A program made the position numbers and the translations under genes. A stretch of 51,392 nt of DNA from Erysipelotrichaceae bacterium (GTDB taxonomy: Bacteria; Bacillota_I; Bacilli_A; Erysipelotrichales; Erysipelotrichaceae), in assembly GCA_029101345.1 (NCBI GenBank), contig JAQXQU010000015.1, forward strand, positions 1 to 51,392, read 5' to 3'. Positions 2,698 through 46,179 of the stretch are shown piece after piece. Each line of letters starts with the position of its first letter. Positions within the stretch are counted from its first letter, which is position 1. Below the pieces are notes generated by a model. That model was given only the letters and a program-made list of their open reading frames with translations. It did no database searches and had not been told where the DNA came from.

Positions 2698-2712
2698 AAA
2701 GATATTCTAACA
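2698..2712 (-). promoter_or_regulatory. extended -10 promoter for the lspA operon
   Basis: Read on the minus strand, TG-T-TAGAAT is followed by ATCTTT and then the lspA ATG. The six-base gap places the expected transcription start at the A of the ATG. No convincing -35 is seen, as expected for an extended -10 promoter. It lies just downstream of the TSCPD gene's terminator. Confidence 0.5.
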
Positions 2713-8910: not shown

Positions 8911-8925
8911 ACTTTTATTTTAGCA
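8911..8925 (-). promoter_or_regulatory. extended -10 promoter of the glycosyltransferase gene
   Basis: Minus-strand TG-C-TAAAAT, then AAAAGT, then ATG. The exact six-base gap predicts transcription starting at the initiation codon. No SD is present. Confidence 0.5.
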
Positions 8926-9668: not shown

Positions 9669-10196
9669 CTATTTCTTTTTAGGTGTTAATACACAGGACA
9701 TGATGTTGCCTTCGAGTTTAGGCTTTTTGTCAACAATGGCAATTGTACTTAACTGGTCGATGAAATCGTTCATGACCTTCAAGCCAACTTCCTGTCGAGT
9801 CATCATACGTCCTCTGAAACGCATGTCTACTTTAACTTTCATACCATCTTCAAGCCATTTGACTGCTTGTTTCATTTTGGTATTGAAGTCATTAGTGTCA
9901 ATAACCGGAGATAAGCGCATAGGCTTGATTTCGGTTACAGACTGCTTCTTTTTGGCTTCTTTAGCTTTCTTTTGGGCTTCGAAACGGAATCTTCCATAAT
10001 CAAGGATCTTGCAGACAGGTGGCTGGGCATTGGGAGCAACACAGAGCAGATCAAGTTCCTGATCATAAGCTCTTTCCAATGCTTCTCTTCTCATCATGAC
10101 CCCAAGCTGATCACCATTTGCGTCAATTACGAGAACTTCCTTGAAACGAATGCTTTCGTTTACCAAGTCTTCATTTTGCGTTTTCTTCGTGATAAT
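9669..10196 (-). CDS. infC: translation initiation factor IF-3 (non-ATG start)
   Basis: IF-3 binds the 30S subunit and checks the initiator tRNA-start codon match. The N- and C-terminal domains joined by a Lys-rich linker (KKAKEAKKK) are complete. No ATG lies near the expected N terminus. The reading frame continues upstream of the TTG at 10166 to codons ATT-ATT-ATC directly behind GGAGGT (10205-10200), giving ITKKTQNEDLVNES before the conserved VNESIRFKEV. I place the start at the second ATT (10196); ATC at 10193 is equally possible by spacing. Rare AUU-type starts allow IF-3 to repress its own synthesis. The product is about 175 residues. Confidence 0.9.
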   Translation of the reverse strand: MITKKTQNEDLVNESIRFKEVLVIDANGDQLGVMMRREALERAYDQELDLLCVAPNAQPPVCKILDYGRFRFEAQKKAKEAKKKQSVTEIKPMRLSPVIDTNDFNTKMKQAVKWLEDGMKVKVDMRFRGRMMTRQEVGLKVMNDFIDQLSTIAIVDKKPKLEGNIMSCVLTPKKK

Positions 10197-13869: not shown

Positions 13870-13923
13870 ATGCTATAATTTTACTATATTATTTGCAAAA
13901 TGCATTAGGTTATCTGGAGGCGT

Positions 13924-24552: not shown

Positions 24553-24679
24553 GATAGTAATATTTTATCATTATCCCTATAAAATATTAAGATGATTTTC
24601 CGTAAATAAATAAGTTGCAAAGATACCTTTCTTATGATAAAGTAAATAAGCGAAATATTTGAGAAAGGGGGCTGTCGGT

Positions 24680-29045: not shown

Positions 29046-29059
29046 ATTAATATATTATA

Positions 29060-32427: not shown

Positions 32428-32439
32428 ACAAACATTATA
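32428..32439 (-). promoter_or_regulatory. priA: -10 element giving a leaderless priA transcript
   Basis: Minus-strand TATAAT (32439-32434), then GTTTGT, then ATG. There is no clear -35 and the sufB terminator lies immediately upstream. Confidence 0.45.
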
Positions 32440-32442
32440 CAT

Positions 32443-45172: not shown

Positions 45173-45200
45173 ATTATAGGTAATTCCTACATTGATTCAA
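45173..45200 (-). promoter_or_regulatory. recA: recA promoter
   Basis: TTGAAT (45200-45195), 16-base spacer, TATAAT (45178-45173). The -35 is inside the pgsA 3' end. No Bacillota-type LexA box (CGAAC-N4-GTTCG-like) is visible near it. Confidence 0.7.
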
Positions 45201-45780
45201 AAATATAGTCCTTCAATTGATTGAAGTATGAATAGCAGCCAGCTGCTGAAACAAAGGCTGTAAACCATAATAGTATTTCATCAATTGGCATATAGATAAG
45301 TTCAAATGGAATATTGTTCAATAAGACAATGACAATTGTAACCATTTGACAGACAGTCTTGAGCTTGCCCAAGAAACCAGCAGCTACAACCTTGCCATTC
45401 TGGGAGGCAATCATGCGACAGCCATCAACAATAATATCCCTTCCGAGCATGATTACTACTGGCAGAACAGAAACCATGCCCTTGTAGAGCATGATGATCA
45501 GTGCTGTATTGACCAGAAGCTTATCGGCAATTGGGTCGGCGAATTTGCCAAAGGTTGTGATCAGCTGATACTTTCTGGCAATTTTGCCATCAAGCATATC
45601 AGTCAGCGAGGCAATAACAAAAATAGCCAGAACAATGAGATTCAGATAGGAAATTGAAACTTGCCCCACATTCAAGGAGCCAAAGCAGATGCCAAAGGCA
45701 TCATATGGGAATAGCCACACAACTACCATTACAGGTACCAGGACAATTCTGAAAATTGTCAGTTTATTAGGTAAATTCAT
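45187..45780 (-). CDS. pgsA: CDP-diacylglycerol--glycerol-3-phosphate 3-phosphatidyltransferase
   Basis: A 197-residue membrane enzyme making phosphatidylglycerol phosphate. The CDP-alcohol phosphotransferase motif appears as [12 protein letters not shown]...[10 protein letters not shown], with the conserved D-x2-DG-x2-AR-x8-G-x3-D-x3-D spacing. Four or more hydrophobic segments. It has no SD; TG-C-TATAAT ends exactly six bases before the ATG. Confidence 0.93.
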
Positions 45781-45795
45781 GTTTATATTATAGCA
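45781..45795 (-). promoter_or_regulatory. pgsA: extended -10 promoter giving a leaderless pgsA transcript
   Basis: Minus-strand TG-C-TATAAT, then ATAAAC, then ATG. It is the clearest example of the pattern in this window. Confidence 0.6.
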
Positions 45796-45811: not shown

Positions 45812-45833
45812 TAAAAAAGACCTTTGCAGGTCT
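45812..45833 (-). terminator. terminator after rnpB
   Basis: Minus-strand AGACC-TGCAAA-GGTCT followed by TTTTTT. It directly follows the T-rich end of the RNase P RNA. Confidence 0.85.
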
Positions 45834-45836
45834 AAA

Positions 45837-46179
45837 AAATAGCATTAATAAGCCATGTTCTGTACCACAAGGGTGACAACCATTTATCTGCATTTCTGCC
45901 CTCAAATCGCTTCTTTTTCGCTATTGAAGTTCCCCTACCAAATTTGGGTTTCTCGCTTATGGGGTTTATCACGTTCCACCTTGCCATTTCTGGCAAATTC
46001 GTCACTTTGACACTTTTATAGGCTCATTCCATGGTTTCCTTTAGGACTTATTGCCAGCCGTTGACCTTTTGGACCACCCAAGCTTATTTGTTGGCTTGGC
46101 ATAAACACTACATCCATCACAGGATGTGCGAGCATGGACTTTCCTCTAGCAATTGCCAGCGGTTGTCTAAATGCTATTT
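45837..46179 (-). ncRNA. rnpB: RNase P RNA (Bacillus type B)
   Basis: Catalytic RNA that trims tRNA 5' leaders. Diagnostic minus-strand blocks are GAGGAAAGTCCATGCTCGCA near the 5' end, AGTGACGAA, GAGAAACCCAAATTTGGTAG (J/loop region of type B RNAs) and ACAGAACATGGCTTAT near the 3' end. The terminal P1 helix is AAATAGCATT (46179-46170) with AATGCTATTT (45846-45837). At about 340 bases it is shorter than B. subtilis RNase P RNA (about 400). The P1 5' strand overlaps the last codons of gpsB. Confidence 0.95.

Follow-up and report, generated by a model that had tools for sequence, protein, structure and literature searches.

In the draft genome of an Erysipelotrichaceae bacterium (GCA_029101345.1), a promoter -10 hexamer ends exactly six bases before the start codon (gap 6) of an estimated 7-12% of genes, an arrangement best explained, very probably, by leaderless mRNAs. 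Within the genus, two such promoters would often be fused into a single palindromic -10 element, ATTATATAAT, serving two opposite genes, and this N6-ATTATATAAT-N6 module is apparently new and a stronger finding than the leaderless genes themselves. The source is a 2.24 Mb draft MAG of 213 contigs in which no 16S gene was found, and the window is the whole 51,392 nt stretch analysed (contig C15, JAQXQU010000015.1), whose closest PgsA relatives are from Erysipelotrichaceae MAGs (73%). Gene calls came from a custom-made caller.

A preliminary description of the window, made from the letters alone, reported gap 6 at four genes, and direct reading of the sequence bears this out, all four lying on the minus strand. 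The predicted leaderless pgsA (45187..45780) has TATAAT at 45787..45792, preceded by TGC (45795-45793) and separated by ATAAAC from its ATG at 45780. The corresponding elements are TATAAT (32434..32439), GTTTGT and ATG 32427 for priA; TAAAAT (8917..8922, TGC extension), AAAAGT and ATG 8910 for a glycosyltransferase gene; and TAGAAT (2704..2709, TGT extension), ATCTTT and ATG 2697 for lspA. The TGn element is found in three of the four, as described, priA instead having ATG directly before TATAAT. The longer gaps, also on the minus strand, read as reported: eight bases for rdgB (TAAAAT, 13878..13883; ATG 13869) and rlmN (TATAAT, 29054..29059; ATG 29045), and nine for ftsA (TAAAAT, 24562..24567, TGA extension; ATG 24552). 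Gene names were upheld by NCBIfam for lspA, priA, pgsA (TIGR00560), rdgB and rlmN; ftsA falls short of the curated cut-off, and for the glycosyltransferase the matches are to generic models alone. The pgsA start coincides with residue 1 in the 80 orthologues aligned. The transcription unit directly upstream is that of rnpB, the class B RNase P RNA (45844..46174, minus strand), and a terminator-like hairpin 3' of it (AGACCT-GCAA-AGGTCT-TTTTT, 45813..45833, minus strand) ends 17 bp before the pgsA TGn. lspA also lies behind a terminator, and the priA -10 element is directly behind a terminator T-run. An in-frame ATG at 32442, five codons upstream in priA, is the 5'-most candidate; because it lies inside the promoter, 32427 is the plausible start. 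Elsewhere in the window, infC (IF-3, 9669-10166, minus strand) has no ATG in its start region and was called from a TTG, which may be an autoregulated non-ATG start of the sort found in other bacteria; the start model placed this TTG at gap 6, a call we do not trust and have excluded from the ATG set. An IS30-family transposase gene occupies the contig end (50316-51290, minus strand).

The exact spacing between -10 element and ATG is real and beyond chance. Genome-wide, TGNTANAATN6ATG occurs at 37 sites and its reversed pattern at none. In a 431 kb sample, TATAAT precedes the ATG of ORFs of at least 80 aa at gap 6 in 28 cases, against 0-8 at other gaps, and no such peak was seen in this sample with GTG, TTG or permuted trinucleotides. 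When the coding score alone decides the start, 26 genes of the same sample fall at gap 6 over a background of 2.4 per gap (P=2.8e-18). An unsupervised start model whose spacer prior was uniform learned a gap of exactly 6 for 57% of -10-led genes, gaps 7 and 8 taking 8-10% each (17 genes together); it assigns 49 of 401 genes to gap 6, compared with 0-6 once the upstream bases are shuffled. Gap 6 accounts for 47/405 genes (11.6%) in the 431 kb, a figure inflated because these contigs were drawn for having several pattern matches; we therefore added 365 kb from contigs lacking strict matches, where it accounts for 21/306 (6.9%), and these values bracket the 7-12% estimate. Gaps 7-8 contribute a further few per cent, partly by chance. 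Had the same spacing been equally common before operon-internal genes, the leaderless reading would have failed, but it precedes only 6/194 of these against 36/201 other genes (p=1e-6); SDs do prevail inside operons, as the preliminary description held, with 168 of the 194 internal genes SD-led.

The bases around the gap-6 starts resemble an extended -10 promoter (TRTGn), with T-17 in 68%, R-16 in 57%, T-15 in 70% and G-14 in 57%, while the -35 match, at spacer 17-18, is barely over background. An SD 4-mer is found in 1/47 gap-6 genes against 214/285 SD genes, a comparison in which start choice and classes come partly from the same model. The usual initiator of transcription is a pyrimidine at -1 followed by a purine at +1. 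A pyrimidine occupies -1 in 44/47 gap-6 genes and in 147/285 SD genes (p=6e-9), or 26/26 and 41/61 when starts are called from coding only, as would be expected if the A of the AUG served as the purine of a Y(-1)R(+1) initiator. The genomic setting is also distinctive, in that 15/24 co-directional gap-6 genes but only 9/48 SD-led first genes have a terminator hairpin no more than 90 nt upstream (p=4e-4). These terminators end 9-40 nt ahead of the ATG, their T-run often touching the -10 region (lspA, priA, rimM, lepB). Where divergent genes have at most 59 bp between their starts, all 13 pairs include one or more genes classed as -10-led by the model, and in 11 pairs a gap-6 gene is present.

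From this anatomy, together with the statistics and the conservation in relatives, we infer both where the transcripts begin and how they are translated. Sigma-A-type promoters with a Gram-positive extended -10 (TRTGnTATAAT) and little or no -35 would be so placed that transcription begins on the A of the start codon, giving an mRNA with neither 5' leader nor SD, whose 5'-terminal AUG would be bound by ribosomes already loaded with initiator tRNA, in an IF2-dependent manner. The users would mainly be genes that open a transcription unit, either after a terminator or within a short divergent gap, with operon-internal genes keeping to ordinary SDs. A start at the AUG is indicated because the spacing is exact, SDs are absent, a pyrimidine stands at -1 and the promoters are squeezed behind terminators, and because divergent gaps are too short for two leaders and the 6-nt spacing is kept in relatives. 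The earlier proposal that transcription starts on or next to the start codon is thus supported for gap 6 by spacing, SD absence, -1 pyrimidine, setting and conservation, whereas the genes at gaps 7-9 may have leaders of 1-3 nt.

Transcription start sites often scatter by one or two bases, and genes at gaps 7-9 do occur, so the -10 element could be thought to set a start near the A but not exactly on it, leaving a leader of 1-5 nt. For the gap 7-9 genes such a very short leader is quite possible; as an account of the arrangement as a whole it is unlikely, given that a start on the A itself fits both the peak at a gap of exactly 6 and the pyrimidine found almost universally at -1 of gap-6 genes. 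It is far less probable that the true promoters lie further upstream, the TATAAT close to the start codon then being either fortuitous or an AT-rich, unstructured element that acts in translation. TATAAT-like words are common at low GC, and AT-rich initiation without SD is known in Bacteroidota (PMC9581028), but the peak is lost at other gaps, with other trinucleotides and on shuffling, TGn and the -1 pyrimidine are promoter features, the terminators leave so little room before the ATG, and divergent gaps of 22 bp have no space for further elements, by which this explanation is already largely refuted. Nor do we give more than the slightest credence to misassigned start codons with translation from a downstream, SD-led codon: start prediction errors are frequent in draft genomes, yet conservation reaches to residue 1-3 in pgsA, lspA and tmcAL, and the gap-6 peak persists with starts picked independently of upstream signals. 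A leaderless mRNA beginning at the AUG is accordingly the reading we retain for the gap-6 genes.

Family searches, with some matches below curated cut-offs, name among the gap-6 genes lspA, priA, pgsA, tmcAL, rimM, signal peptidase I, ispG, rlmD, recG, rnc, def, truB and an RsuA-kind 16S pseudouridine synthase, besides murT-like, scpA-like and rqcH-like genes, an rlmA-like methyltransferase and a CvfD-type S1 protein. Many of the genes in this list have rRNA, tRNA or nascent chains as their targets. One gap-6 promoter belongs to an apparent fusion (L034, 16759-18717, plus strand) of 652 aa, whose residues 1-385 match a glucosyl-diacylglycerol synthase and residues 391-650 RecX.

Among divergent pairs of the sample in which both genes are -10-led, tmcAL/yceD has the shortest gap and reads CAT-GAAACT-ATTATATAAT-AATGTC-ATG (G000 C13:13434-13461 in the window's genome; L174, L178; genus-wide sites L173-L177, L208-L247). 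The N6-ATTATATAAT-N6 spacing is exactly 22 bp in 24 of the 29 genus genomes having this pair, and in all 24 exact sites the ten central bases are invariant while the six-base flanks vary, retaining a pyrimidine before the start codon in 24/24 on one side and 23/24 on the other. Searched as CAYN6ATTATATAATN6RTG, the module is present in 30/36 genus genomes, the reversed pattern in none, against a chance expectation of ~0.01-0.03 sites per genome. In a family sample of 196 genomes the 18 positives all lie within the genus (0/175 others), and two further matches were found elsewhere in the class, of which one is flanked by nothing but short frames. The sites stand between at least nine divergent gene pairs: tmcAL/yceD, UDG/Mur-ligase-like, Mur ligase/pfkB, GH25/GNAT, a second GH25 pair, TraB-gumN/HD, truB/PP-loop ATPase, msrA/ispD and M19 dipeptidase/unknown. 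A pyrimidine stands at -1 in 94 of 98 oriented starts, and 21 of the 98 use GTG. In the window's genome each gene of the divergent truB pair has a gap-6 promoter of its own, the two lying 44 bp from each other, while truB in G548 has the fused form.

Bidirectional promoters described by Warman and Grainger have symmetric -10 elements and start sites 7-25 bp apart (PMC10268837, PMC12825309), mostly 18 bp (PMC10268837). The module resembles them in its palindromic -10 element, and the start spacing of 23 bp that follows from its geometry falls within their range, differing from 18 bp, which is the commonest value and not a required one. Unlike those promoters, its two boxes share the -12T/-11A step, and both predicted starts coincide with the start codons of real genes, so that both mRNAs would be leaderless. 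The module thus looks likely to be a bidirectional, doubly leaderless promoter. We further consider it probable, with good though not full confidence, that the 22 bp constitute a complete double gene start, with one palindromic -10 element, two leaderless mRNAs and no other non-coding DNA, which arose between at least nine unrelated divergent pairs and would set its two genes in competition for a single polymerase site. As a control region containing both promoters and both start codons in 22 bp, it may rank among the most compact for two genes in bacteria and, if confirmed, would provide a near-minimal system for studying what directs RNA polymerase one way or the other and what brings ribosomes to a 5'-terminal AUG.

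The leaderless genes themselves are of a kind already known in Bacillota (streptococci, Lactococcus, mycoplasmas). The view that leaderless initiation is not the norm in this phylum is half right: mapped leaderless mRNAs make up 8.6-9% in S. pyogenes, S. agalactiae and S. pneumoniae, where they are conserved between species (PMC6431027), though in Enterococcus the share is under 1% (PMC7724050). The share here is similar to the streptococcal one, in another class and predicted from sequence where the streptococcal mRNAs were mapped. Leaderless mRNAs have also been predicted in Lactococcus, Leuconostoc and Mycoplasma; the 'TA-like' TAtAAT signals of Firmicutes described by Zheng et al. 2011 (Lactococcus-Streptococcus, Oenococcus-Leuconostoc, Mycoplasma) likewise have TATAAT replacing the SD, with a TG extension in low-GC genomes as here (PMC3160421). 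That study does not name Erysipelotrichaceae and gives a Firmicutes mean of 4.2%, against ~7-12% here, and the spacing is now resolved to exactly 6. Mollicutes are placed near Erysipelotrichia (placement cited in PMC4245973), which makes Mesoplasma florum a relative, and its mapped 5' ends lie mostly 6-7 bases past the -10 box (PMC7745072). Erysipelotrichia are counted among SD users by anti-SD type in passages of a paper that discusses leaderless genes, and these passages report none in the class. We found no report of leaderless expression in the gut Erysipelotrichaceae clade in the open literature searched, and the present analysis would extend it there; if confirmed, gene-start prediction for these MAGs requires a leaderless model.

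The pgsA upstream regions of the 80 orthologues and the window form a natural series of one gene alternating between leaderless-type and SD-led starts. A -10 element at 5-9 nt without SD is found in 32, an SD in 47, both in one and neither in one, the two states being nearly exclusive. The leaderless-type rows are confined to a single half of the tree, which comprises 43 rows and in which 10 SD rows are interspersed, and the best tree requires at least five changes of state, two of them forced by strongly supported branches. By its upstream sequence, pgsA is thus a gene that switches between the two forms among relatives, in contrast to the streptococcal leaderless mRNAs conserved between species (PMC6431027). 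Four leaderless-type rows (L051, L064, L070, L091) have a second TATAAT 21-25 nt before the ATG besides the one at 6, perhaps a remnant of a leadered promoter or an intermediate state. In the window (45807-45800) and in L054, L065, L069 and L083, the word GAAAGGCA lies ~20-27 nt ahead of leaderless-type pgsA starts, possibly as a relic of a leader; in the SD-type row L057 it stands ~6-13 nt before the ATG, the usual SD place.

Beyond pgsA, the start model finds gap 6 independently in a genus relative (G001) and a family member (G064), and weakly in G018. The trait is patchy, since 100 kb samples each of G057, G070, G101 and G267 contain no gap-6 peak; stretches of G034 and several short contigs of the window's own genome (G000) read as N. 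In genomes of named organisms the genome-wide site counts do not correspond with pgsA state: Anaerorhabdus furcosa, whose pgsA is SD-led, has nine TGNTATAATN6ATG sites, six of them with a -1 pyrimidine. Hand-summed counts at gap 6 against the control gap 9 were 201 and 71 in the genus, 451 and 180 in the rest of the family, and 488 and 299 in the sister family, so the enrichment declines with distance from the genus. In a broader survey, which covered one GTDB lineage, a genome of the same class, G276, has about ten identical copies of TGGTATAATTATAGTATG, a repeated leaderless-type start that perhaps belongs to a mobile element or gene family.
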